64,000 bases of DNA, taken from Polyangiaceae bacterium. Its GTDB lineage: Bacteria > Myxococcota_A > Polyangia > Polyangiales > Polyangiaceae. The stretch lies in NCBI GenBank assembly GCA_013214025.1, contig JABSRN010000060.1:1-64000 (forward strand). The letters are read 5' to 3'. Positions 14,593-31,160 of this stretch are shown here, one piece after another. The notes under the pieces are model-generated. The model was not told where the DNA came from. It made no database searches and saw nothing but the letters and a program-made list of their open reading frames with translations. Each line of letters starts with the position of its first letter. The stretch's first letter is position 1. The translations under genes and the position numbers were made by a program.

Positions 14593-15597
14593 ATGCCTTC
14601 ATCTCTATCAGTCCGCACGCGCCACTCGTTGATCTCCGTCGCAATCGCCGCTGTCGCTCTCGCCGGTGCCTGCTCGGACACAGACGCCGAAGGCACTTCC
14701 GACAAGAACACCCCCGTTGCGAATACCGACGGCGGCGGGCGGGATCCCAGCTTGAGTGATGCCTCACCCGCAGCGGGCGGAAGCACTGCATCTGGCGGCA
14801 CCATCGGAAGCGGAGACATATCGTCCGGAGGCACCAGCAATGCCGGCGGCACCAGCAATGCCGGCGGCACCAGCAATGCCGGCGGCACCAGCAATGCCGG
14901 CGGCACCAGCAACGCCGGCGGCACCAGCAACGCCGGCGGCACCAGCAACGCCGGCGGCACCAGCAACGCCGGCGGCACCAGTAGCACGACTGGCCAGCGC
15001 GCCAACGGATCCAATAGCGGCAATGGCACAGGGTGCGCGGGTCAGATGGACGCCTGTGCCATCTGCGACGGCGACGGCAGTAGCTGCGGATGCTCTAGCC
15101 GATGGTGCATGGATATCGTGTACGAACACAATTTGGTCCGCGCTGCTATCAACCTCGGCACTTACCTCGAGCAACCTCAGGCGGTTCCACCGATCGCGAT
15201 GATGACTTGGGATCCCTTGATCGCCGAAAAGTCCCAATCCTACGCAACAAGCGTGACCCACTGGGACGATGGGCACAGCAGCGACGCCTATCGCAATTAC
15301 ACTAGCACCTACCACACCGGCGACCACGGCGAGAACATGGCTATCGGTACTGGAAGCTACGCGGATCCCGACGAATTTGTCGGGGCAAGTTGGGCTGCCA
15401 GTGAAGCCGTGGGTTGCACGGGCTCAAGCTGCGGTGGGCACTACACGCAGATAGTCTGGGACGACAGCATCGCCGTCGGCTGCGGCTCGAAGGACAACGT
15501 GCCCTTCGAATCCAATGAGGTCACGTACTACGGAACCCTCAGCGTCTGTCAGTATGGCGCCGCCGGCAACTACGGCGGCGAGCCCTATTCGTTCTAG
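14593..15597 (+). CDS. CAP/SCP-domain (PR-1-like) secreted lipoprotein
   Basis: The protein has 334 residues. An N-terminal hydrophobic signal ends in ALAGAC, a lipobox-like site. A 130-residue low-complexity stalk follows, including eight perfect GGTSNA hexapeptides. The CAP domain occupies about residues 170-334 with its signatures in order: YEHNLVRA, WDPLIAEKSQSYA, HTGDHGENMA, CGGHYTQIVW and CQYGAAGNYGG. The conserved His/Glu of the CAP cavity are present. Cysteines CAICDGDGSSCGC precede the domain. CAP proteins are secreted; some bind lipids or act on envelopes, but function is rarely predictable. No strong ribosome binding site is visible before the ATG. Confidence 0.9.
   Translation: MPSSLSVRTRHSLISVAIAAVALAGACSDTDAEGTSDKNTPVANTDGGGRDPSLSDASPAAGGSTASGGTIGSGDISSGGTSNAGGTSNAGGTSNAGGTSNAGGTSNAGGTSNAGGTSNAGGTSNAGGTSSTTGQRANGSNSGNGTGCAGQMDACAICDGDGSSCGCSSRWCMDIVYEHNLVRAAINLGTYLEQPQAVPPIAMMTWDPLIAEKSQSYATSVTHWDDGHSSDAYRNYTSTYHTGDHGENMAIGTGSYADPDEFVGASWAASEAVGCTGSSCGGHYTQIVWDDSIAVGCGSKDNVPFESNEVTYYGTLSVCQYGAAGNYGGEPYSF
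14827..14970 (+). repeat. 18-bp in-frame tandem repeat, 8 copies (GGTSNA)
   Basis: Eight 18-bp units encode GGTSNA. Units 1-4 use AAT for Asn and units 5-8 use AAC, so the array falls into two blocks of four. A ninth degenerate unit (GGTSST) follows. The array sits in the stalk of the CAP protein and can change length without breaking the frame. Confidence 0.9.
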
Positions 15598-17802: not shown

Positions 17803-20800
17803 CTACTGTTGGTCCAAGCAACTGTAGTCAATTTCCCAGTCGTTCACGACTGGCGCTTCCCCCCCTGCCCCGGGCTCCATCTGGACTTCGACCTCCACGA
17901 AGCGGAACCCGCTTTCCGGGCTACCCAGAGCCGCCGCAAGATTGATAGGACACCCAGCGACCCCGCCGGGAATGCAGAGCTCGTTGCCACTAGAGGCCTG
18001 CACGACCGTGAGCTCGGTGTACGTCGCGCTGGCCAGACCCGCGCTCGTCGTTGCCGCCCGAATACTGAAAGTGATCGTCGAATCCGCGGGTGTCTCGGAG
18101 TCGTAGTGGAGATTGCCCCACGTCGGGCTGTCTCCGTCTGTCGTACACACACCTTCGTATTCCTCTGAGGTCGCAGTGGGTAGCGACGACACGCCGCCGT
18201 CTGGACCGGGCGGAATCGGAACCGTCGAGGTCGGCAAACACTCGATCTCGATCGATATTCGCGCCCGGCGGTCGGTCTTTACCTCGTCGCAGGACGTGGG
18301 GCACAGACTGATTTCGGCAGCTCCGGAGTAGTACCATTCGTTGGTCGCCCCGCTACAGGACGCGAGGTCGATCACCTGATCTAGCTCGACCAATTCGTTT
18401 TCGCTGGCCGGAGGCTGGGGCCCAACACAGACCGCGTCGTAATAGTCGATGTCGCAGTTCGACGCAGACCACGTGCCGTCCTGCCGCATGCGAGCGCAGT
18501 TTCCGAGCACGCCGGGCACGCCGCCGTTCCAGTTGTTGTATTGGCCCGGTTCCGGAGCTCCGGCTACACCTACGGATCGACACAAGCCTTGCCGGGGCGT
18601 GTCACATGGCTCATCGCTCCAGGTGCCGTCCGCCAGCATCACGGCACAGTCCGCCCCGGAGCCGTCAGGCTTGGGGATCTCGCACAAGCCGATCTTGGTA
18701 TCGCTGCACAGCTCGTCCGTCCACGTGCCGTCCAGATTGACCATCCCGCAGTCCTGGCTCACTCCGAGCGGCCGGGGCATGGAACACACGCCAAACTTGG
18801 AGAGGCTACAGGCCTCGTCCGACCAGGTACCATCGCTGTTCATGATGCCGCAGTCCTCAGAATCAAGAGCTGGATCTGGCATTTCGCACAAGCCGGGCTT
18901 CGACAGATCGCACTCCACGTCCTCCCAGTCGCCGCCGGTGGTCATGACCGCACAGTCCTCGGTTACATGCGGCCGCGGTATCTCGCAGAGCCCGGACTTT
19001 GTGAGGGAACACTCGGCGTCTTGCCACACACCAGCCGTGGTCATCATCCCGCAGTTTTGCTCCGGCGGAGGATCCCAGGGCACGTCACAGAGCCCGACCT
19101 TGGTGCTGGAACACTCGATGTCCTCCCAGTCGCCGGCGTTCGTCATGTAGACACAATCCTGGGTGGCAGGCGCGACCTTCGGCACATCGCAAAGACCCAC
19201 CTTGGAGAGTGTGCAGTCCACGTCAACCCACGTTCCATCTGCCTGCACCATCGCGCAGTCGTCGTTGATCTCAGGCACCCAGGCAGCTTCGCAGATCGCC
19301 ACTCGAGAATCTGAGCAAAGCTGATCGCTCCAGGTACCATCGTCTTCCATGATGGCGCAGTCCGCGTCCGACAACACGGTAGCGGGAACCTCGCACAGCG
19401 CTAGCTTACTGGCAGTACAGTCCGCGTCTCCCCAGGTGCCATCGGCGAGAACGTAGCCGCAATCTTCGCTGGTCGAGCCATCGGGCGCGCTGGCGAAGTT
19501 GTTGTACTCACCGCCCACGGCCGAGCCACTCTTCGGGCCTTCGCAACTCCCATATTTGTTGTTATTGCAGCTACTAGAGTCAGCCCAATCGCCCGCGGAC
19601 TGCAGGTACGCACACGTGCTTGAGTTGCCTGGCTCGGAAGTATCCCAATCTTCGAAAGTGATCGCCGTGGCGTCCGCCCACTGCCATACGGTAGAGACGT
19701 AGCGCACACCAAACCAAAGCCCAGTCGCGCCGAGGCCAGAAGCGAATCCCTTCACGATATCGTGCTGGGCGCTGTCTTCAATGACTGTGAAATCCCAATC
19801 GGTGTCGATGCCCTGGCAGGCCGTACGCGCAGCCGCCCAGCTTGTTTCCACCGACGTTGTTCTACGGAAGCAACGCCCATCGAGCTCTGTTTCTCCCGAG
19901 TCGCAGCCGAGGCTGTAGAACAGGGTGCCGTCCGCGCGGTACCACTCGCCCTCGCCATCCGGCGAAATGCCACTGTCGTCGCCCATTCCGATCCAATAGT
20001 CGCCGCTGCCCATCCAAGAGAGCGCCTGGGTATCTTTGGTGGCGCTATCTATGCTGATGAGATCCCCACCGAGCCCCTGGCACGCCGTGCGAGCCACAGC
20101 GAACGTTCCTGTGGAGATTTGTGCCAAACACGCATCCATCGTCGGATCGTATGAGCTGCCGACCGGACAGGGTCCGTCAGCCGAGTCATCGGGCTGGACG
20201 CCGCCCCAGTTGTTGTACTCACCACCAACGACTGCGCCCGTCCCGAGTGGACCTTCACAACTGCCATACTTGTCGCGGGTACAGGCGCTTGAGTCCCTCC
20301 AGAGACCATTCTCAGTAACGTATGCGCAGATGCTGCCTGTGCCCGGCTCGCCGCCTCCCCAGCTATCGTAGCCAATGGCAGTCCCATCCGCCCACTCCCA
20401 GGTCCCGCCGTTGTCCGTCACACCGAACCAGATGCCCTCAGTACCCTCGCCAACGGCGAAGCCCGTCACGACGGCATTCTCGGCCGCGTCATCGATTACG
20501 GAATAGTCCCAGCCGGTGCCCATCGCTTGACAGTCTGAACGCGTGTCGGGCCAGTCCGTCCCGGTCAAGGGTGTCTTCGCAAAACAAGAACTGCCGACCT
20601 GGGTCTCCCCTGCACCGCAGGAGGCTCCCCAAATTTGAGTCCCGTCCAGACGGTACCAGTTGCCTTCCCCCTCTGTGGAATAGGCGTCGTCGTCGCTCAC
20701 GCCGATCCAAAAGCCCCCGCCGCCCATCCAACTGAGCAACTGGCCGTTCAACGTATCGTTGTCGAGATTGACGATGTCGCCGCCCATACCCTGACATGCG

Positions 20801-23800
20801 GTAATTCCCTCGGCGAAGGTTCCTCCAGCAGTCTGGGCGAGACATCTCCCGGAGCCAATGTCTTCAGTGAACCCCACCGGGCAAGCCGCCGCCACATAGG
20901 CGTCGGGCTCGCCGGTGTCCCAGTTGTCGTATTCGGAACCGACAGCGCCAGCCGCGCTCGGCGGTCCCTCACAACTGCCGTATTTATCTCGCGTGCAGGC
21001 GCTTGAGTCTGCCCATTCACCCGAATCGGTAACGTATGCGCAGATACTGCCGGTGCCGGGCTCTCCGGTCCCCCAGTTGTCGTAGCCGATTGCCATGCCG
21101 TCCGCCCACTCCCAAGTCCCACCGTTGTCCGTCGCTCCGAACCAGATGCCCTCGGTGCCTTCCCCAACGGCGAAGCCCGTAACGATACTGTTCTCATCGG
21201 CGTCATCGATAATCGTGTAATCCCACCCGGTATCGATAGCCTGACAATCCGAACGGGTGTCCGTCCAGTCGGTCCCAGTCGATGCCGTTTTCATGAAGCA
21301 CGAGCCGTTGAGCTCGGTTGCCCCCGAGGGACAACCTCCGGTGGTGTAGAAGTGAGTGCCGTCGGTTCGATACCATTCTCCTTCACCATCAGGCGAAACG
21401 CTGCTGTCGTCGCTGGCGCCGATCCAGTAGTCGCCGGCCCCCATCCACGTCAGCGCTTGGCCGTTCAATGTACCGGTATCGATGCTGATGAGATCGCCGC
21501 CCAGCACCACACACTCCGCCTGAGCCGAAGCGAAGGTTCCGGAGCCGGTCTTTGCCAAGCACTTGCCGGTAGTCGCGTCGTCCGTAGTGCCAGCGGGGCA
21601 CACGTCAGGGCCACCGTCGTCGGGCTCCGATGTAGCCCAGTTGTTGTACACCCCGCCGACCTCAGCACCGGCCGTGTACACGGTGGTACCATCAGACCGA
21701 TCGAAGGTTCCTTCGATCGCTACGCTCTCCTGGTCGCTCAGTCCGATCCAGAAGTCGCCCCCGCTCATCCACGTCATGGCGTCGCCGTTCATACCCACGT
21801 CGTCGATGTCGATGAGATCGCCGCCGAGTCCTTGGCATTCTGTCCGCGCCGCATCGAACGTGCCGGCTGTGGTTTGCGCCAAGCAGCGACCCGATGTGAC
21901 GTCCTCTGTGGTGCCCGCGGGGCAGCTAGGCGCACCGGCGTTATCCGGCTCCAGCGTATCCCAGTTTTCGTATTCCGAGCCAACGGCCGCGCCCGCGGGC
22001 ATCGGTCCGGAGCAAAGGCCGTACTTGTCGTTGTCGCAGCTCCCTGAGTCCGCCCAGTCCCCATCGGACTGCATGTACGCACAGGTGCTGGCGCTGTCAG
22101 GCTCGCCGATAGGCCAGTTCTCGTATGTGATGGGAGAACCATCCCACCACTCCCAGCTACCGGTATCCGCAACGCCGAACCAAATCCCGTCCGAGTCGGG
22201 CACGAAATTCTCGGCGATCAAGTTCTGAGCGCTGTCTAGGATCATGGCGAAATCCCAACCCGCGCCCATAGCCTGACAACCCGTCTGGGCGGCAGACCAG
22301 CTCGTCTCGATGGATTGGGTCAGCCCAAAACACATGCCATCGGTCTCTGTCTGCCCGGCAGGGCACACCTGACTCCAGAAGTTCCTGCCGTCGGCTCGGT
22401 ACCAAAAACGTTCGCCTTCGACGGAGTAAGTGCTCTCGTCGCTATGGCCGATCCAGTACTCGGTCGCGCCCATGACAACGCCGGCATCGGAGTTCACGGC
22501 TGCAGAAGCCACGCTCACGAGCTCGCCACCCCAGCCCAAGCACTCCGCCCGGGCGGCGGCAAAAGTTCCGGCGCCAGTAGTCGCCCTGAGACACACCCCG
22601 CTGCTACCCCCTTCGGTGGTGCCAACGGGGCAGTCGGTCGGAGCGGTGTCATCGGGCTGGTCGGCCCAGTTGTTGTACTCGGCACCCACCGGACCGGCGG
22701 GGCCGATGGGCGGCCCCTGGCAAGCGCCGTACTTGTTATTGTTGCAGCTGCTCGAGTCTTCCCATTCACCAGAATCCGGAATGTACGCGCAGATGCTGGA
22801 GGTATCCGGCTCGCTGGCACCCCAGTTGTCGTAGGTGATGGGGGTACCATCAGCCCACTCCCAGGTCCCGCCATTATCCGTCGGACCAAACCACAGCCCC
22901 GTCGAGCTAGCACTAACCGCGAAAGCGGTGACAATATCGTTCATGTCACTGTCTTCGATGATGGTGAAATCCCAACCGGTACCCAGCCCTTGGCAGGCGG
23001 TGCGGGCCGCAGACCAACTGGTCTCCTCCGACGGAGTGACAACCAAGCATGACCCGTTGTAGGGGGTTTCTCCGGCGCCACAGGGGTTCGACCAGATCAG
23101 AGTACCGTCGGTCCGGTACCAGAAACCCTCGCCATCCGCCGAAAGGCCAGTGGTGTCGCTCGCGCCGATCCAGAACTCCGTGCCCCCCATATAACTAGAG
23201 GCGTTCGTGTCCGTGCCCGCGCCATCGATATTGATTAGGTCACCCAGACCAGCACCGATAGAGCCACACTCAGTCCGAGCCGCATCAAAGGTGGAAGACC
23301 CGGCGGTCGCGGTCCAGCAGTTGCCGGTGGTCGCGTCCAGATCGGTGCCCACGGGGCAAGCCGGCGGCGTGCTCGGCTGTCCGGCGAGCCAGTTGTTGTA
23401 CTCAGCGCCGACCTCAACACCGCTGACAATGATCTGCGTGCCGTCCGTCCGTTCCCAAGTGCCCTCGGTCGCGACGCTCTCCTGGTCGGAGACACCGATC
23501 CAAAAGTCGCCGGCAGGACGCTGTGCCAGGGCATAGGTGTTAACCGCCGCAGTGTCGATATTGACGAGATCCGCCCCGGTGCCTAGCGCCTGGCACTCCG
23601 CCCGAGCGGTGTCGAAGTCCGTCGCGGCAGTGGTCACCTTCCAGCAGGTATCGGTCGCGGCATCTAGCGTCGTTCCCGCAGGGCACGGCATGTCTAGCGA
23701 GTCGTTAGGCTCCAGGCTCGCCCAGTTGTTGTACTCGCTGGCGGAGGTGCCGGGTCCTTCGCAGAGCGCGGGGTTAACGTCGGATATTGCGTAATCGCCC

Positions 23801-26800
23801 CACCCGCCGCTGTTGGTGGTGCTCATGCCAGCGCAGTCCTGGCTGGTACTGCTCGCGTTCGGCTGATCGTTGACCCGCCAATTGTTGTAGGCGCTGTTCT
23901 GGGGGGTACCGGCCTCCGTTCCTTCCCAGAAATAGGTACCGTCAGGCAGGTACCAAGAGCCCTCCGTCGTCATGTCATCGCCGCCGATCCACGTGGTTTC
24001 CGTGATCAAACCGAATACGAAGTCGTTCTCGTCCAGGTCGTCAATCTGGACGATGTCCCACCCGGCGCCGAGCGCTTCGCAATCGCCCCGCGCGTTGATA
24101 CAGGTCCTCAACGAGGTAAATTCGTAGCACTTGCCGTTGTAGGCGGTCTGTCCCGCTCCACAGGAGTTAGCCCAGAATATCGTCCCATCGGAGCGAAGCC
24201 AGCGCCCCTCTGTCGAGTCCGCGTCTTGGTCCGTCGCGCCAAACCAGAACTCGCCAGTTAACGAACAATCATAGCCTCCGCAAGCCGCGTTCTGGCTAAC
24301 CACCTGGTTGACACAGCCTTCATACCAACCACCGCTCGGTGTGCCCACGTCCGCGGCCTGCAGGTTCGCTCCGCCGCCACAGTTGCTCAATTCGGTGCAA
24401 GCATCGAAGTAAAGGGTCCAGCCTGTTGGATCATTGCCAGCCCAATTGCTCGGGCCGAAACCTGTCAGCTCAATTAAGTCTTCGTTGTCGGCAGCCGGCC
24501 CCGTCCATTCGGTCATGATGGGGCCGCACTTGGTTTCATTGTCGGCCCGAAGAGACACCACAAAGTTGTCGTTCGCGCTGACGCTAAGCGCGTCAATGTG
24601 ACAACCGATGAGATCAAAGTCGGCCACTAGGGTGATCGAAGAGCCATCCCAATAATGAATCTCCTCGTCCGGGTAGCTGCCGATGATTCCCGATCCACTG
24701 AAGTAAAAAAGCTTACCGGCCGCTGTGGGCCCGCTATCGCCAACAATGTGCAGCGCCGATATGTCATCAGTAAACAGGTCGAACTCCAGATCCAGCCACA
24801 CGGACCAGCTCGTCCCGTCCCACTCATAAAAGGTGTCGGTGTCACCGCTAGCAATGTCGACAGTGCCGTCCGGTCGGCGAAAATCTGAGATCTCGTTCAC
24901 CGCAACCACGACACTGGTCGTGCCGGGGATTCGCGAAAATGCGGTAATCACTTGGGTACCGCTGCAGTCGCCGCCGCCGCAAATCATGCCGTCGGCAATG
25001 CCGTGGTTGACCGGCTCCACAACGGGATCGGCGGTGATCTGACTGCCGGCCGTCAGCGCCGGATCGAAACCAAAGTAACCCGCTTCATGGGGGGCGATGG
25101 TGCTCCCGCCGTTACCAATGGTTGCGGCGGCGGTTAACCAAAGCCCCGGAACTGCAACGGCACCGCAGCTGGGGATCGCGCCCACCACTGCGTCCACACA
25201 CGTATGGCAGGAAGGGGTAAGTATTGATCCTGTGGTGCAAACGTCGTGCTCACACACTCCGCCGTCGCCGGGAGGCGTGCCGCTCGGCGACGACACCAAG
25301 GAGCGTGACAGCGTGTTCATCTCGACGGTATCGATGCTGACCAAGTCACCCCCGAGACCAATCGCCTGGCACGCGGCGCGCGCGGCATCGAAGGTGAGGT
25401 CAGCCGTTTGTGCAAAACAACGCCCGCTTCCGATATCTTCGGTTGTTCCCGCAGGACACTCGATCGGAACGCTGTCGTCAGGGTTTGGCGCGGCCCAGTT
25501 GTTGTACTCCCCGGTAACAGGCTGAACGCCCAAGTTGGGTCCCCGGCATACTGCAGGGTTGTTGTCCGAGCACTTTGCGTCGCGCCACGACGAGTCAGTC
25601 TGCATCATCGCGCAGTCCTCGTCGTTGCCACTGTTCCCGTCGTTTGGCTGGCTTGTACTTGATTCCCAGTTCTCGTAGTTGAGGGGGCTGCCCTGAGCCT
25701 GTCCGCCCCCTTCGCCCTGCCAGAACCATGTGCCGTCCTGCCATTCCCAGCGACCTTCGGTCCGGTCACGTGCCCCAATCCAGGTCGGCTCGGATATCAG
25801 CCCCTGAATGAATGTGTTCTCTCCGACGCTTTCGATCCGAGTCAAGTCCCAACCGGTACCGATCGACTGGCAAGTAGTCTCCGCGCTGTCCCAGTCCGGT
25901 AACTCCGACGTATAGATGTAACAGTAGGCGCCGTAGGCGGTCTGACCCGCATCGCAAATGGGCGCGTAAAAATCCGTACCATCCGTCCGGCGCCACAGGC
26001 CCTCTGACGACATCGAATCCGAATCGCTCGCGCCAATCCATGACTCCGTGCCACCGGTCAGCGACAACGCGGCGGCGTTCAGCTCTGTGGAATCAATGCT
26101 GATCAAGTCCCCGCCTACCGCCACACACTCGCCGCGCGCCAGATCGAAGGTGGTGGACGAGGTAATCAAATAGCAAATACCTGTGGTCAGATCCCCCGTA
26201 GTGCCGGCAGGGCAACCGTAGGTGGCATCGTAAATATTGATGCCGCCACGCTCCCAGATATCGTCGTCGTCTACGTCCGTGATGTTGATCCACGCGTCAT
26301 CGCCGGTGAGCAGCGTCGTGATAAAATTGTTCACGTCCGGATCCGGCACACCGGACAGGTCCCAGCCGGTGCCTCGACTCTGACAAGTCGTCTTGGCGTC
26401 CGCCCAATCGCTGCCAACGGCATCCACGTAGTAGCAAAAGCCATCGGGCCCGGTGCTCTCGCCAAAGCCGCAAGTCTCGATGGCTGTGCCCGTCAGTGGG
26501 CCTTCGCACATGGCGGGGTTGTTGTCGGAACAGGAATAATCCGCCCAATCGCCGTCTGTTTGCAGGCCCATGCAGTCGCTACCACTGGGCTCGCTCGTTG
26601 CCCACAGCACGTCCGCCACATCGATTGTAGAACCGTCCTGCCACTGCCAGGTGCCTTCAGTTTCGCGATCGTCTCCACCAATCCAGGTGGTTTCCGTGAT
26701 AACAGCGGTGACGAAAGTATTCTCGGCGGCATCGTCGATCTTGACCAGATCCCATCCCGCGCCAATCGCCTGGCAACCAGCGTCCGCATACTCGTCCCAA

Positions 26801-29800
26801 TCGGTGTCGAGATTGTTGAGCAGGCGGTAGCACCTACCGCTGTATTCGGTTTCGCCAGTCCGGCACGCCGGAGTAAACGACGTCGGTACAGGCCCCGGGA
26901 CGTAAGCCACGCTCGCCTTGTCGGGATCGAAGTCATCCGAGTTCACTAGCGGGAATGTGCAGTCCACTGAACTCGCCAGAATCTCATCAAGGGCGGCCTG
27001 CAGCTGCGCCGTCACATCCCCGCCGGAGGGCGAGACGTAGAAGCCTTCGTTTGTGCCGCCGTAATCCGCGATCAAATCGATTGTAGCCGGCAGGACCCCC
27101 TCGACGCCGATCACGAACGTCCGCACACCGTTTGCCAGTCCATTGGCGGCCACCACAGAAATGTCGTTGACGTTGTTGTTGCAGTCGCCTTGCGGTTCCC
27201 CGTCCGTAACCAGGACTACGACGTATTCGTCTGTCGGGTTCAGGGCTTTCGCCGCGCCGGCCGCCAGGAGCGCACCGCTGAGGGCCGGGTAGATGGGAGT
27301 GCTGCAACCCTGAGGCTCTGTGTTATCGAAGGCCTGTAAAAGTGCTTGTTCGACCGTATCACTGGGGGCCAGTTCGTAGCTCAGCTCGCCCCCCGTGAGC
27401 ATGACGGCGCAGGCGTCGTCGTCGCAGACGGCCCCGCTGCCGCTGCCCATGCAACCTACCGCTGGATCGTCATCGGGGAAGAAGCGCAGTTGGGCGTCGA
27501 TGCCGGCATTTCCGGGGTCCGAGAAGAAGCCTTTGAGTGCTTCGCTCACGGGATGCCAGCGCTCCAAGTAGTCGTCATCATAACTGCCAGAGCAACCGGG
27601 CCCGCCCATGGAGCCGGAGCGGTCGACCATGAAGAACATGTGAACGCCCTGGATGCTGGCCTGGCTAGCGTTACCGCTGCAGATCGGGCGACCACATGCC
27701 GCGTCCCAGTAGAAGCTCCAGTTGTCCCGAGTATCGCACTCGTTCGGTTCTTCACTCCCGTCCTGGGGGTTCACCATTATTTCACGGCCGTTGACCAGGT
27801 TCGGACAATCCGTAATGTTGGTGCACCAACCCGGTTCGATGGTTTCGGTCGTAACGCACTCCTCGACCGATGTTTGGTCCGGATCCAAGGCTCCGAGCTG
27901 CCCCGGATCCAGGTGGATCACCTTGAGGCCAGCCGGTGCCCAGCCGGTACCGTGGTTGCAAACCGTGACTACTTGGTCCGTGCCATCGTCACAGGTCGGA
28001 ATCACGGTGACGTCGTAGGTGCCGCAATCGGGATTTGTCTCGCCGGGGTACCAGGGCCGACACACACCGTTGGACGCCGGCGGGTCCTCGTCTCCACATT
28101 GAGCCCCGCAAAGCGAATCCACAAGTTCGACGCAGCTGGAAGCCCAAGCTGTCAGCGTTCCGCCTCCGTTAGCGACGCTCGGTGGCCCCTTGCAGATGTA
28201 GTCGTTGGTATCGCTGCAGGACCGAGACCGCCAATATTGGGAGCCGCCACCCACATCTCTTAGGGCGGCACAATCTTGATTGCTGCCGTAGCCGCTGCCG
28301 TTGTTCGGCTCTTGGTTGGTTTCCCAGTCGGCGTAAAACCCGCTTTCGACTAGCCCGTTCTCGTCGCCGAGCCAAAACTCTAGGGCTCCGGTGCTTAGGT
28401 CCCACTCCCACTCATTCTCGGTAGTGCGATCATTGCCGGCGATCCACGTGTATGACGCCTGCACTATGCTCGTTATGAATGTGTTTTCACCTGAGCTATT
28501 GATGTCCGCCAGCTCCCACCCCGGACCGATCGCTTGGCATTCTGTAAGGGCAGTGGACCAGTTCGTGTTCGTACTGCGGAGCTCGTAGCAACTGCCCGCG
28601 TACAGCTCCTGCCCACCTGCGCAGCCACAGCTAATGCCCAGGCCCGCGCAAGACGTATCCACCAAATCCACGCAAGCTTGTGTCCACGACATCCCACAAC
28701 AGGTCGCGTCAATGTCACACACAGCCTTCGCGCAACTGTCGCAAGTCCCCACCAGTGCGGCACCCACTTCGCATAGGTCGTGGGTGCAACTGCCCGGAGC
28801 GAACCACTCCGGAGCGTTGCACGTGTCGCCTGCGGTCGGCGTGGACGCCGGTGCTGTCCCCGTAGCCCAGCCCCGAGACTCGCAGTAAAAGTTGTACAAC
28901 GGGCTACCGTCGGAGCCTCCAAAGCTGTAGGTGTTACCTGCGATTACGTGCGCAAAGTCTTCGGACGGCTCACTCGCCAGCCATTCGAATCCGTCCTTGA
29001 GAGGTGCCGAGCCGGAAGTCCCGTACCAAACCCACTCGCTGGCATTGAACGGCGCCGAAGCGCTCTGGGTCGCTCCCATCCACATGGTCCCGCGGTCCAA
29101 AGTCGGCTTAGTATCCGTCGACAGCGACGGGTGGCTCAGGTCAAAGTAGTTGAGCGGAGGAGACCCGCCACCGGCCAGGAAGTTCGATTCCATCACAGTG
29201 GCGGTGCTATCGCCGTTGCCGTCGATAGCAGCCAGGTACATGCCTAACCCTGCACAGACCGTCGCCGCGTCCTCAAAATTTGCTGCGCCGTCGTCACATT
29301 CCGGGTTTACGCCCACCCCCGCTGCTGTGTCCCCGCAGTGAACGTAGCAGTGGGATTCAGCCCCGACCCCGCACGACCCCGCCGCCCCGGAAGGATATTT
29401 CCACTCGTACTCCGCGCACTCGACGTTGACATTGCAATCGGTACTCGTGCCGCGCGCCGCCGCCCCCATCCACGGCGCGGTGGAGCAATCGCAGCTCTCC
29501 TCGATGGCCTCACACTCGGTGCCCACCAGACCCACGCAGTCTTGAGTCCAGGTGTCCGTGCAGCACGACGAGTCCGACGCGCAGACCAACGCCACACACG
29601 AGCCGCAGTTTGTCGCGAGAGATGCGCCGGTCGTACAGGGATCGTGAGAGCAAGGCGCCACCGGTAGTGAGCTCTCCGAACAACAGGTGGAGTCGTAATC
29701 GCAGACGGCAGCCACGCAGTCGGTGCAGCCGTACTCAAGCTCGCCACCGCTCGAACAAGGGTGATGGGTGCACGAGCCCATCGTCGGGTTCGTGCAGTAC

Positions 29801-30345
29801 GTTCCCATCTGGCAATCGCCCGCGATGCTACAGGGTTCATTTTGAGTACCTGCCCTCAGATCCGGCGGATAATCGTTGAACGTTCCCTGGGTCCAGTCGT
29901 ATTCGACGCCACCGTCCGGTGTCGGATCAGTGCCCGCGCCAGCCTCGCTAAAAGTCGGCCACAGCCCACCATCCGGCGCCTCGATGAAGGTTCGGCAGTA
30001 GGGGTTGCAGGGGTTGTCCGCGCAGCCCGTTGGCGCGCTCAGGGACGTCAGGCGTTGCAGTGTTCCTTCGCTGAGGTCATGACTGACATGCCGCCCGCCG
30101 CTACATTCGCTCCATTTGCCGTTTTGACACGTTTGAGTGCCGAGGTAGCAGGACAGCGATAGGCCCTCTTGAGCGATGGTTCGGCCGCAAGACTGTGTCG
30201 CATCGTCCACGCGACAGGTCGTCGACTGGAGGTCCAAATCCGTCGTAACGCAACCGGATGCCGCCGCCAAAACGATGAACCCAAGCACGACGAACCACGG
30301 GCTCGTGCTGGTTATGTGAAGGTCTCGTGACTTACGTGGGCTCAA
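17803..30345 (-). CDS. Giant lipoprotein: VWA domain with recursively nested C-type lectin-like domains (about 4,180 aa)
   Basis: The frame is uninterrupted over 12.5 kb. TTG at 30345 is the probable start: GAGGAG lies 5 bases upstream and the product then opens with a lipoprotein signal (VVLGFIVLAAASGC). The frame itself continues to 30435. Order: Cys-rich C.HDPC modules and two CTLDs (about residues 190-750); VWA domain (about 905-1130) with MIDAS DRSGSM and VLVTDGEPQGD; a complete CTLD from 26865; then from 26472 to 18427 ten interleaved or nested CTLDs plus seven complete ones; finally a closing VWA-protein segment (EWYYSGAAEISLCPTSC) and about 150 further residues. CTLD landmarks are C..GET.YNG.C, AR..CQ..G.GWD, WFG.TDNG, YDNWG..EP, and CA....G.W.D..C....YG.CEG. 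CTLDs bind sugars, proteins or ice, often with calcium. It is likely a surface adhesin or recognition protein. Confidence 0.85.
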   Translation of the reverse strand: MSPRKSRDLHITSTSPWFVVLGFIVLAAASGCVTTDLDLQSTTCRVDDATQSCGRTIAQEGLSLSCYLGTQTCQNGKWSECSGGRHVSHDLSEGTLQRLTSLSAPTGCADNPCNPYCRTFIEAPDGGLWPTFSEAGAGTDPTPDGGVEYDWTQGTFNDYPPDLRAGTQNEPCSIAGDCQMGTYCTNPTMGSCTHHPCSSGGELEYGCTDCVAAVCDYDSTCCSESSLPVAPCSHDPCTTGASLATNCGSCVALVCASDSSCCTDTWTQDCVGLVGTECEAIEESCDCSTAPWMGAAARGTSTDCNVNVECAEYEWKYPSGAAGSCGVGAESHCYVHCGDTAAGVGVNPECDDGAANFEDAATVCAGLGMYLAAIDGNGDSTATVMESNFLAGGGSPPLNYFDLSHPSLSTDTKPTLDRGTMWMGATQSASAPFNASEWVWYGTSGSAPLKDGFEWLASEPSEDFAHVIAGNTYSFGGSDGSPLYNFYCESRGWATGTAPASTPTAGDTCNAPEWFAPGSCTHDLCEVGAALVGTCDSCAKAVCDIDATCCGMSWTQACVDLVDTSCAGLGISCGCAGGQELYAGSCYELRSTNTNWSTALTECQAIGPGWELADINSSGENTFITSIVQASYTWIAGNDRTTENEWEWDLSTGALEFWLGDENGLVESGFYADWETNQEPNNGSGYGSNQDCAALRDVGGGSQYWRSRSCSDTNDYICKGPPSVANGGGTLTAWASSCVELVDSLCGAQCGDEDPPASNGVCRPWYPGETNPDCGTYDVTVIPTCDDGTDQVVTVCNHGTGWAPAGLKVIHLDPGQLGALDPDQTSVEECVTTETIEPGWCTNITDCPNLVNGREIMVNPQDGSEEPNECDTRDNWSFYWDAACGRPICSGNASQASIQGVHMFFMVDRSGSMGGPGCSGSYDDDYLERWHPVSEALKGFFSDPGNAGIDAQLRFFPDDDPAVGCMGSGSGAVCDDDACAVMLTGGELSYELAPSDTVEQALLQAFDNTEPQGCSTPIYPALSGALLAAGAAKALNPTDEYVVVLVTDGEPQGDCNNNVNDISVVAANGLANGVRTFVIGVEGVLPATIDLIADYGGTNEGFYVSPSGGDVTAQLQAALDEILASSVDCTFPLVNSDDFDPDKASVAYVPGPVPTSFTPACRTGETEYSGRCYRLLNNLDTDWDEYADAGCQAIGAGWDLVKIDDAAENTFVTAVITETTWIGGDDRETEGTWQWQDGSTIDVADVLWATSEPSGSDCMGLQTDGDWADYSCSDNNPAMCEGPLTGTAIETCGFGESTGPDGFCYYVDAVGSDWADAKTTCQSRGTGWDLSGVPDPDVNNFITTLLTGDDAWINITDVDDDDIWERGGINIYDATYGCPAGTTGDLTTGICYLITSSTTFDLARGECVAVGGDLISIDSTELNAAALSLTGGTESWIGASDSDSMSSEGLWRRTDGTDFYAPICDAGQTAYGAYCYIYTSELPDWDSAETTCQSIGTGWDLTRIESVGENTFIQGLISEPTWIGARDRTEGRWEWQDGTWFWQGEGGGQAQGSPLNYENWESSTSQPNDGNSGNDEDCAMMQTDSSWRDAKCSDNNPAVCRGPNLGVQPVTGEYNNWAAPNPDDSVPIECPAGTTEDIGSGRCFAQTADLTFDAARAACQAIGLGGDLVSIDTVEMNTLSRSLVSSPSGTPPGDGGVCEHDVCTTGSILTPSCHTCVDAVVGAIPSCGAVAVPGLWLTAAATIGNGGSTIAPHEAGYFGFDPALTAGSQITADPVVEPVNHGIADGMICGGGDCSGTQVITAFSRIPGTTSVVVAVNEISDFRRPDGTVDIASGDTDTFYEWDGTSWSVWLDLEFDLFTDDISALHIVGDSGPTAAGKLFYFSGSGIIGSYPDEEIHYWDGSSITLVADFDLIGCHIDALSVSANDNFVVSLRADNETKCGPIMTEWTGPAADNEDLIELTGFGPSNWAGNDPTGWTLYFDACTELSNCGGGANLQAADVGTPSGGWYEGCVNQVVSQNAACGGYDCSLTGEFWFGATDQDADSTEGRWLRSDGTIFWANSCGAGQTAYNGKCYEFTSLRTCINARGDCEALGAGWDIVQIDDLDENDFVFGLITETTWIGGDDMTTEGSWYLPDGTYFWEGTEAGTPQNSAYNNWRVNDQPNASSTSQDCAGMSTTNSGGWGDYAISDVNPALCEGPGTSASEYNNWASLEPNDSLDMPCPAGTTLDAATDTCWKVTTAATDFDTARAECQALGTGADLVNIDTAAVNTYALAQRPAGDFWIGVSDQESVATEGTWERTDGTQIIVSGVEVGAEYNNWLAGQPSTPPACPVGTDLDATTGNCWTATAGSSTFDAARTECGSIGAGLGDLINIDGAGTDTNASSYMGGTEFWIGASDTTGLSADGEGFWYRTDGTLIWSNPCGAGETPYNGSCLVVTPSEETSWSAARTACQGLGTGWDFTIIEDSDMNDIVTAFAVSASSTGLWFGPTDNGGTWEWADGTPITYDNWGASEPDTSSICAYIPDSGEWEDSSSCNNNKYGACQGPPIGPAGPVGAEYNNWADQPDDTAPTDCPVGTTEGGSSGVCLRATTGAGTFAAARAECLGWGGELVSVASAAVNSDAGVVMGATEYWIGHSDESTYSVEGERFWYRADGRNFWSQVCPAGQTETDGMCFGLTQSIETSWSAAQTGCQAMGAGWDFAMILDSAQNLIAENFVPDSDGIWFGVADTGSWEWWDGSPITYENWPIGEPDSASTCAYMQSDGDWADSGSCDNDKYGLCSGPMPAGAAVGSEYENWDTLEPDNAGAPSCPAGTTEDVTSGRCLAQTTAGTFDAARTECQGLGGDLIDIDDVGMNGDAMTWMSGGDFWIGLSDQESVAIEGTFDRSDGTTVYTAGAEVGGVYNNWATSEPDDGGPDVCPAGTTDDATTGKCLAKTGSGTFASAQAECVVLGGDLISIDTGTLNGQALTWMGAGDYWIGASDDSSVSPDGEGEWYRTDGTHFYTTGGCPSGATELNGSCFMKTASTGTDWTDTRSDCQAIDTGWDYTIIDDADENSIVTGFAVGEGTEGIWFGATDNGGTWEWADGMAIGYDNWGTGEPGTGSICAYVTDSGEWADSSACTRDKYGSCEGPPSAAGAVGSEYDNWDTGEPDAYVAAACPVGFTEDIGSGRCLAQTAGGTFAEGITACQGMGGDIVNLDNDTLNGQLLSWMGGGGFWIGVSDDDAYSTEGEGNWYRLDGTQIWGASCGAGETQVGSSCFAKTPLTGTDWPDTRSDCQAMGTGWDYSVIDDAAENAVVTGFAVGEGTEGIWFGVTDNGGTWEWADGTAIGYDSWGGGEPGTGSICAYVTENGLWRDSSACTRDKYGSCEGPLGTGAVVGGEYNNWGGVQPDDSADGPCPVGSSYDPTMDACLAQISTGTFAVARTACQGLGGDLISIDSATKDTQALSWMGSGDYWIGMGDDSGISPDGEGEWYRADGTLFYSLGCDSGETELDGRCFRRTTSVETSWAAARTACQGIDTDWDFTVIEDSAQHDIVKGFASGLGATGLWFGVRYVSTVWQWADATAITFEDWDTSEPGNSSTCAYLQSAGDWADSSSCNNNKYGSCEGPKSGSAVGGEYNNFASAPDGSTSEDCGYVLADGTWGDADCTASKLALCEVPATVLSDADCAIMEDDGTWSDQLCSDSRVAICEAAWVPEINDDCAMVQADGTWVDVDCTLSKVGLCDVPKVAPATQDCVYMTNAGDWEDIECSSTKVGLCDVPWDPPPEQNCGMMTTAGVWQDAECSLTKSGLCEIPRPHVTEDCAVMTTGGDWEDVECDLSKPGLCEMPDPALDSEDCGIMNSDGTWSDEACSLSKFGVCSMPRPLGVSQDCGMVNLDGTWTDELCSDTKIGLCEIPKPDGSGADCAVMLADGTWSDEPCDTPRQGLCRSVGVAGAPEPGQYNNWNGGVPGVLGNCARMRQDGTWSASNCDIDYYDAVCVGPQPPASENELVELDQVIDLASCSGATNEWYYSGAAEISLCPTSCDEVKTDRRARISIEIECLPTSTVPIPPGPDGGVSSLPTATSEEYEGVCTTDGDSPTWGNLHYDSETPADSTITFSIRAATTSAGLASATYTELTVVQASSGNELCIPGGVAGCPINLAAALGSPESGFRFVEVEVQMEPGAGGEAPVVNDWEIDYSCLDQQ
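18427..19465 (-). repeat. Ten tandem CTLD C-terminal pieces
   Basis: About 33 codons per unit. Each has DC[AG].M..DGTW.D..C...K.GLCE.P, meaning the last three CTLD cysteines and the WND-like strand but no N-terminal half. Counted from the N-terminal side they start CGYVLADGTW, DCAIMEDDGTW, DCAMVQADGTW, DCVYMTNAGDW, NCGMMTTAGVW, DCAVMTTGGDW, DCGIMNSDGTW, DCGMVNLDGTW, DCAVMLADGTW and NCARMRQDGTW. Only before the tenth is there an extra loop piece (GQYNNWNGG). Confidence 0.9.
19466..26472 (-). repeat. Array of ten opened CTLD N-terminal pieces with seven complete CTLDs inserted
   Basis: Opening pieces begin C[PG].G.. at about 26472, 26213, 25460, 23690, 23360, 22635, 21920, 21595, 20890 and 20170. 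Each holds the first three CTLD cysteines and ends near W.R.DGT..W. Seven are followed by a complete CTLD (starting near 25960, 24170, 23085, 22370, 21335, 20630 and 19910). An EYNNW..EPD loop piece then follows before the next opening. Openings 4 and 7 have the loop piece directly, and opening 1 has neither before opening 2. No opening is closed before the tail at 19465. Confidence 0.85.
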
Positions 30346-30350
30346 TCCGA

Positions 30351-30356
30351 CTCCTC
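30351..30356 (-). promoter_or_regulatory. Shine-Dalgarno GAGGAG deciding a TTG start
   Basis: GAGGAG on the minus strand lies 5 bases before TTG at 30345. It is the only good ribosome binding site near the beginning of the giant frame. It sets the start so that the lipoprotein signal is N-terminal. Confidence 0.6.
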
Positions 30357-31160
30357 TAGTTGCGCATAGGCAAGAATCGCCTGAGCCAAATCGAAAATTA
30401 CCAGACAGGGTGTACCCGCGCAAGGCGCACGGCACACCTGAGCAAGAGTCCTAAGAGCCACAGCCGACAGCGTCAGAGCCGATAGCTTCGCGGCGCACGA
30501 GATCGAATCGAAAACACACGCACCTACAATGTCCGCCACACGTCCGCACATGTTCCGAAGCCGCTCGCAAATCATCGTTCGGCGTGAACTATCGACTGGA
30601 TATCCCCCGTCAACTTGTGCAACGCGTCGTCCGAGTGCCGCTGACTCACTCCGTGTCGACAGAAATCTGGGTAGCGAATCCCCCATCGTGTGGCTCTCGC
30701 CCACACTGGCGTCCGAAAACGTGTGGAGAGGGAAACTACAGGGCAGGATTGCTCGGACGCTTCAGCCCTGAGAATTCGTCAAATACCGCTTGGTGAGGAC
30801 TCCCGAATCCGACGCCCTGCGAATACGCTATAATCTTGGCGCGTCCGCACAGAATCTGCCCCGAGCGGTAGAGTTCGTTGAACCGCGGCCCGCCCCCGTT
30901 TCCTGGATTGATGGGAGTATCCGTCTGAATCCAGGTCTCGCCCTACTGCTCATGTCGCTCTCGCCTTCGTAGCGCACGCGATCGGTTCGGGTGGGGCCCG
31001 GGGAGCGCTACGGGTGCCCGGAGGGGCGCGGCCGTACAAATCCAAAATTCGAAAGCTGCTCGAGCCTCAAAGTCCTTCTGATGGCGAGTTCGCGGGATCG
31101 GGCTTCACTCTCCCATCCCAGCTCGTCCCTTGTTTGGTCCGTCGTCAGCACGAGCAACAC

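Follow-up and report, generated by a model that had tools for sequence, protein, structure and literature searches.

A predicted Polyangiaceae lipoprotein in which ten C-type lectin-like domains are probably nested one inside another

How can one polypeptide hold ten beginnings and ten ends of the same domain, the beginnings interspersed with complete copies of that domain and the ends following one another in a row? This question is raised by an open reading frame (ORF) of a Polyangiaceae bacterium, located on the minus strand at 17803-30435 of the window (the whole stretch of 64,000 nucleotides analysed here, positions 1 to 64,000 of contig JABSRN010000060.1 in assembly GCA_013214025.1). Its product, of 4,210 amino acids, is a predicted lipoprotein with Cys-rich modules, C-type lectin-like domains (CTLDs), a VWA-like region, the CTLD nest that is the subject of this work and a C-terminal domain. 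In what follows, A1 indicates the N-terminal piece of a CTLD, A2 its long-loop piece, A3 its C-terminal piece and B a complete CTLD. It is very probable that ten CTLDs are concentrically nested in this one, presumably secreted protein, with A1-n folding with A3-(11-n), as had been proposed in a first-pass annotation made from the sequence.

Exact segmentation of the window protein gives 10 A1, 10 A2, 10 A3 and 7 B pieces, in agreement with the counts and coordinates of that annotation. The outermost layer opens with A1-1 (26215-26472), after which the rest of the nest is inserted. The left arms that follow, each made of A1, B where present and A2, lie at 25459-26214 (layer 2), 23686-25458 (layer 3), 23359-23685 (layer 4), 22633-23358 (layer 5), 21925-22632 (layer 6), 21601-21924 (layer 7), 20884-21600 (layer 8), 20170-20883 (layer 9) and 19465-20169 (layer 10, the innermost), all on the minus strand, the higher number of each interval marking the start of A1; these starts correspond to residues 1322, 1408, 1660, 2251, 2360, 2602, 2838, 2946, 3185 and 3423. 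B domains occupy the slot between A1 and A2 in layers 2, 3, 5, 6, 8, 9 and 10, and the slot is empty in layers 4 and 7. Nine A2 pieces, belonging to layers 2-10, precede the next opening or the first A3. The A3 pieces then follow on the same strand at 19384-19464 (A3-1), 19282-19362 (A3-2), 19180-19260 (A3-3), 19078-19158 (A3-4), 18976-19056 (A3-5), 18877-18957 (A3-6), 18775-18855 (A3-7), 18673-18753 (A3-8) and 18571-18651 (A3-9), while the closing part of layer 1 (18421-18546) consists of the tenth A2 (GQYNNWNGG) and, just after it, A3-10, which starts at 18501; the ten A3 starts are residues 3658, 3692, 3726, 3760, 3794, 3827, 3861, 3895, 3929 and 3979. As already noticed in the first reading, GQYNNWNGG is the sole A2 of the tail and layer 1 alone lacks an A2 before the next opening. 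About 2,650 residues separate the outermost pair, A1-1 and A3-10, and the linkers are short, of ~9-10 residues between neighbouring A3 pieces and ~6-9 between an A2 motif and the A1 that follows it.

Two points of the first-pass annotation need revision. Each A domain is indeed cut at its long loop, but two insertion sites are used: in layer 1 all the inner layers stand between A1 and A2, and in layers 2-9 the layer that follows is placed after A2 and ahead of A3. Likewise there are ten A1 pieces, but that of layer 3 is itself interrupted by a foreign insert of ~343 amino acids (24262-25290 on the minus strand, residues 1716-2058). In this insert a Cys-rich module of the form CEHDVC..G..L...C..CV, with likes at residues 222, 262 and 550, seems to start and to be split by a stretch of ~290 amino acids before resuming at WYEGCVNQVV...C, apparently an insertion inside the insertion; the ~290-residue stretch has no significant Pfam match.

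The same grammar is found elsewhere in the host genome, a draft of 5.77 Mb in 184 contigs, which encodes three further proteins with A1 and A3 pieces of this kind and the same C-terminal domain. This domain, of ~200 amino acids (17806-18420, minus strand, in the window protein), is common to the three nested paralogs and to non-nested relatives. The second giant, on contig C122 (G000:C122:318-13997, locus L009), is 4,560 amino acids long, shares both ends with the window protein and contains 11 A1, 11 A3 and ten B pieces. The paralog on contig C151 (L010:6472-7764) has three levels and that on contig C26 (L011:8055-8888) two, so that the equal numbers of A1 and A3 expected for homologues of other depths are observed in every case (11/11, 3/3 and 2/2). 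In both small paralogs, which are devoid of B side branches, the layers are inserted between A1 and A2, and this is probably the older site because it is also the one used by layer 1 of the giants.

As for the reach of deep nests, a tandem-A3 profile run on 183 genomes of the order and 377 of the phylum, and a profile of the A2/A1 junction run on 317 genomes of the class and 281 of the phylum (another centre), gave multi-layer matches in the host genome alone. One shallow case surfaced in these searches within the phylum: an M4-protease-like ORF of genome G149, from the same family (L061:3436-4251, minus strand), contains an independent two-level CTLD-in-CTLD, the insert lying in the A2/A3 slot, just before the last Cys-rich third. 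Strong C-terminal-domain relatives (L021 and others) contain at most a few CTLDs and are not nested, and one scan of genome contigs found two weak relatives, again with no nest. In a further relative of the family (L032, G005:C21:25000-32000), a remarkable W/C/Y-rich repeat (CGWRWRYVYTYI...) runs through several hundred residues of the N-terminal half.

Do the separated pieces make up one fold? The Pfam Lectin_C profile (PF00059), which has 107 positions and a curated cut-off of 22.6 bits, detects 13 stretches in the 4,210-residue protein, with 468 bits overall. When A1, A2 and A3 are spliced in mirrored order, all ten resulting sequences match the profile from position 2-4 to position 105-107, with 36.8-52.6 bits; scored alone, four A1 pieces cover positions 2-56 and three A3 pieces positions 81-106, in each case below the cut-off. 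Compared with solved structures, the inner domain aligns by one half with the first part of known CTLDs and by the other with their last part. Furthermore, exactly three cysteines are present in 21 of 21 A1 arms and 21 of 21 A3 arms of the two giants and none in A2, and the B domains have six, or eight in one instance. Long-form CTLDs have a C0-C0' disulfide, which falls within A1, a C2-C3 disulfide, within A3, and a C1-C4 disulfide bridging A1 and A3; each half alone therefore keeps one unpaired cysteine.

The profile tiling tells that the halves are complementary, and the order in which they pair was examined by comparing the A1-A1 and A3-A3 similarity matrices over all 21 layers of the two giants. 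The two matrices correlate with r=0.77 when the arms are paired in mirrored order vs 0.11 in parallel order; none of the 220 registers obtained by shifting in either direction does better than the unshifted mirror, which is matched by 0 of 20,000 random orders. Both arms of layer 1 are divergent, and when this layer is left out the values are r=0.50 and 0.07, respectively (p=5e-5). This correlation, which is the mirrored similarity anticipated in the first-pass annotation, together with the complementary tiling, supports the pairing of A1-n with A3-(11-n) at the level of sequence. A3-3, A3-4, A3-5 and A3-6 would accordingly close layers 8, 7, 6 and 5 on the basis of counts, mirror test and profile tiling, and A3-8 would close layer 3 on the basis of segmentation and mirror test, while A3-7 and A3-9, the presumable closures of layers 4 and 2, bear the signatures FG[VI]CS[ML]PRP and DTPRQG[LM]C, common to layers 4 and 2 of the paralog, respectively. 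In fact, layers 1-5 of the two giants correspond one-to-one, the A1 pieces being reciprocal best matches and the A3 pieces, numbered from the outside, mostly so too. For these orthologous layers dN/dS (non-synonymous over synonymous divergence) is ~0.39/2.2 (~0.18) for A1 and ~0.33/2.4 (~0.14) for A3, the synonymous sites between the giants being saturated, so both arms have been held under purifying selection across a long divergence.

Part of the nest was also modelled with AlphaFold2 (AF2). One model covers layers 9 and 10 of the window protein, the two innermost, its residues 1-238 being the left arm of layer 9 and residues 239-473 that of layer 10. It was built on a clean alignment of 16 rows, chosen because in denser alignments MAFFT drew tail and CTLD fragments onto the B domains. 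Its mean predicted local distance difference test score (pLDDT) is 79.3 and all its parts are folded, with values mostly of 71-90 in A1-9, 86-89 in A3-1 and 84-86 in A3-2, and A3-1 and A3-2 have three strands each. DC-SIGNR (1xar_A; Z 17.8, root-mean-square deviation 2.4, 127 residues aligned) and ASGR1 (5jq1_B; Z 17.5, deviation 2.0, 121 residues aligned) superpose on residues 236-503 of the model, that is, on A1-10 plus A3-1, skipping the 130-residue insert B-10. In the model, A1-10 and A3-1 are closed as one CTLD around B-10, with A3-1 closing layer 10. A1-9 would pair with A3-2, which would close layer 9, given the strand pattern, the confidence and the process of elimination, because these are confident strands with no other free partner. 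The structure prediction suggested in the first-pass annotation has thus borne out the innermost closure and the folding of the A3 pieces in the two-layer model, and a four-layer model of the C122 giant was uninformative.

Several observations weigh against this reading, or at least against parts of it. Among the 50 superpositions listed for the two-layer model, none pairs A1-9 with A3-2 (residues 1-533), and the predicted template modelling score (pTM) is only 0.42, so that the placement of the domains, and hence the rod described below, is not established by it. The AF2 model of four layers of the C122 giant, from a 9-row alignment, has a pLDDT of 53.8 and a pTM of 0.26, with A3-3 and A3-4 unfolded; it was rejected because the alignment is too shallow and the outer A3 pieces are unfolded, and in its superposition list the B domains alone match CTLDs (Z ~18). 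The mirror test within the window protein alone gives p=0.04, and the DNA sequences, which are mostly saturated, carry a fainter mirror signal (r=0.43, p=0.012, paralog layers 2-11), with no significant co-variation of B and A3. Deep nests have come to light in a single genome, after searches within one phylum. Finally, it is doubtful that the A domains bind sugars because, even if A2 retains EPD, EPN or QPD in most layers, the WND motif of A3 is mostly replaced by WSD, WTD or WED.

On the evidence above, a mechanism can be put forward in which each A domain of layers 2-9 would be cut at the long loop and run as A1, A2 (EPD/QPD), the entire next A domain and, after the inner closures, A3, with a second complete CTLD, B, inserted into the same loop ahead of A2 in seven of the ten layers. 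Every bracket would be locked by its own C1-C4 disulfide. Each CTLD may sit with its foot on the head of the preceding one, because the termini of a CTLD adjoin and its long loop is an out-and-back excursion, and successive A domains would be neighbours joined twice because only ~9-10 residues link one A3 to the next. Repetition of this joint would give a stiff rod in which the chain crosses each joint twice, its two ends lie together at the base and the B domains branch off sideways. The closure of levels 1-9, the C1-C4 locks and the rod shape are what we infer from these elements. As to its origin, it is likely that a bracket grammar applies, in which layers were added in the interior, both arms being duplicated together, up to ten and eleven levels, with the outermost domain closing last in a doubly linked rod.

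The most serious alternative concerns this last step. The nest would be real, but left-arm and A3 units would have been duplicated separately in tandem, with selection removing the unbalanced versions. The saturation of DNA similarities between layers and the lack of significant B-A3 co-variation in the recent block leave room for such a history, to which we assign a minor but appreciable probability. Opposed to it is the fact that layers 6-10 of the C122 giant form one recently amplified block on both arms (similarity 0.52-0.79 for A1 and 0.57-0.78 for A3), as is the one-by-one match of the outer layers between the giants on both arms; moreover, single-sided steps would give misfolding intermediates. 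Insertion of whole layers best explains the mirrored history. To the eye, B and A3 also seemed to alternate strikingly in layers 6-10 of the paralog (top A3 pairs 7/9 and 8/10), but this pattern proved not significant.

Far less probable is that the halves close as CTLDs partly between different molecules, by domain swapping, or in a non-mirrored register. A precedent exists in the HABAS domains of the Si3 insertion of cyanobacterial RNA polymerase, which exchange secondary-structure elements (PMC11515920), but the short A3-A3 and A2-A1 linkers favour intrachain closure, closure in the two-layer model is likewise intramolecular and the mirrored order ranks first among the 220 registers compared. 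Slightly less credible still is a degenerate tandem array, in which the A1 pieces would be truncated CTLD spacers and the A3 pieces an independent short Cys repeat, their equal counts being coincidental or due to unrelated amplification. Along the chain A1 does alternate with B CTLDs, the A3 pieces do stand in a row and the pieces tested alone do fall under the Pfam cut-off, but this reading has to face A1 and A3 numbers that agree at four different depths, a profile tiled by exactly complementary pieces, three cysteines in each of 42 half-domains, purifying selection, mirrored similarity and the closure of A1-10 with A3-1 by AF2. An assembly artefact, which a draft of so many contigs might suggest and against which the first-pass annotation had cautioned, can be practically dismissed, given the intact ORFs of 12.6 and 13.7 kb on two independent contigs, the same grammar in four paralogs, compared DNA repeats at most ~78% identical and a longest exact repeat of ~20-24 nt.

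Where would such a nest be found in the cell? A lipobox-like LAAASGC near residue 61 makes the 4,210-residue product a predicted lipoprotein, its N-terminal start being uncertain. The VWA (PF00092) match scores 16.7 bits, below the Pfam cut-off of 23.8, and the region can be called VWA-like only; a DRSGS sequence (DxSxS motif) was spotted in it by eye. Because of these two elements, the lipoprotein anchor and the VWA-like region, both probable, the nest would be located on the cell surface. Its function is a matter of tentative preference, the most likely candidate being that of a long surface adhesin, or a stalk that binds glycans, able to withstand proteases and force. Elsewhere in the window, a gene at 14593-15597 on the plus strand encodes a CAP (Cys-rich secretory) domain protein with a (SNAGGT)n linker, and this repeat gives rise to long overlapping ORFs on the opposite strand.

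Many CTLDs in a long surface chain are a feature that the window protein shares with the mannose receptor, DEC-205, PLA2R and Endo180, and such tandem CTLD receptors are the top Foldseek and sequence matches of the two-layer segment; in these receptors the CTLDs are arranged in a row, without insertion into one another. The small nests of C26, C151 and L061 resemble the giants in that one CTLD interrupts the long loop of another, and those of C26 and C151 also share the N- and C-terminal regions; unlike the giants, all three have two or three levels and no B side branches. Among open-licence full texts no description of nested CTLDs was found. More generally, domain insertions are mostly single-level and the inserted domains have close termini (PMC13114784). 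The closest known system is Si3, in the beta' subunit of cyanobacterial RNA polymerase, in which HABAS/SBHM domains are recursively inserted into one another (PMC11515920) and which was highlighted as a six-level nest, a complex case, in a survey from 2026 that covers 2.7 million classified domains (PMC13114784). Both Si3 and the CTLD nest have domains of the same family recursively inserted in one chain, of the A1-B1-C-B2-A2 type; recursive self-insertion of this kind, of at least two levels, is present in the sequence grammar of both giants, AF2 closing the innermost level and supporting the second. Si3 differs in its fold, in being part of an intracellular enzyme and in having ~nine HABAS insertions that branch and show domain swapping, whereas the CTLD nest has ten or eleven regular concentric levels at the same long-loop sites, half-sets of disulfides divided between the arms and B side branches. 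Recursive self-insertion is therefore already known, and the ten and eleven regular CTLD levels are a new extreme, the deepest regular domain nest that we found on comparison with the literature.

Paralogs with ten and eleven levels indicate that nesting can be open-ended, as tandem repetition is. This poses a hard problem for co-translational folding and for export because the first domain to be opened is the last to be closed: if the nest is as proposed, the outermost domain would close only once the ~2,650 intervening residues have been made and exported. Nested proteins are a challenge case for structure predictors as well as domain parsers, both of which take them for truncated domains, and the natural proteins of depth 2, 3, 10 and 11 in this genome offer a test set for studying how nests grow, fold and bear load.

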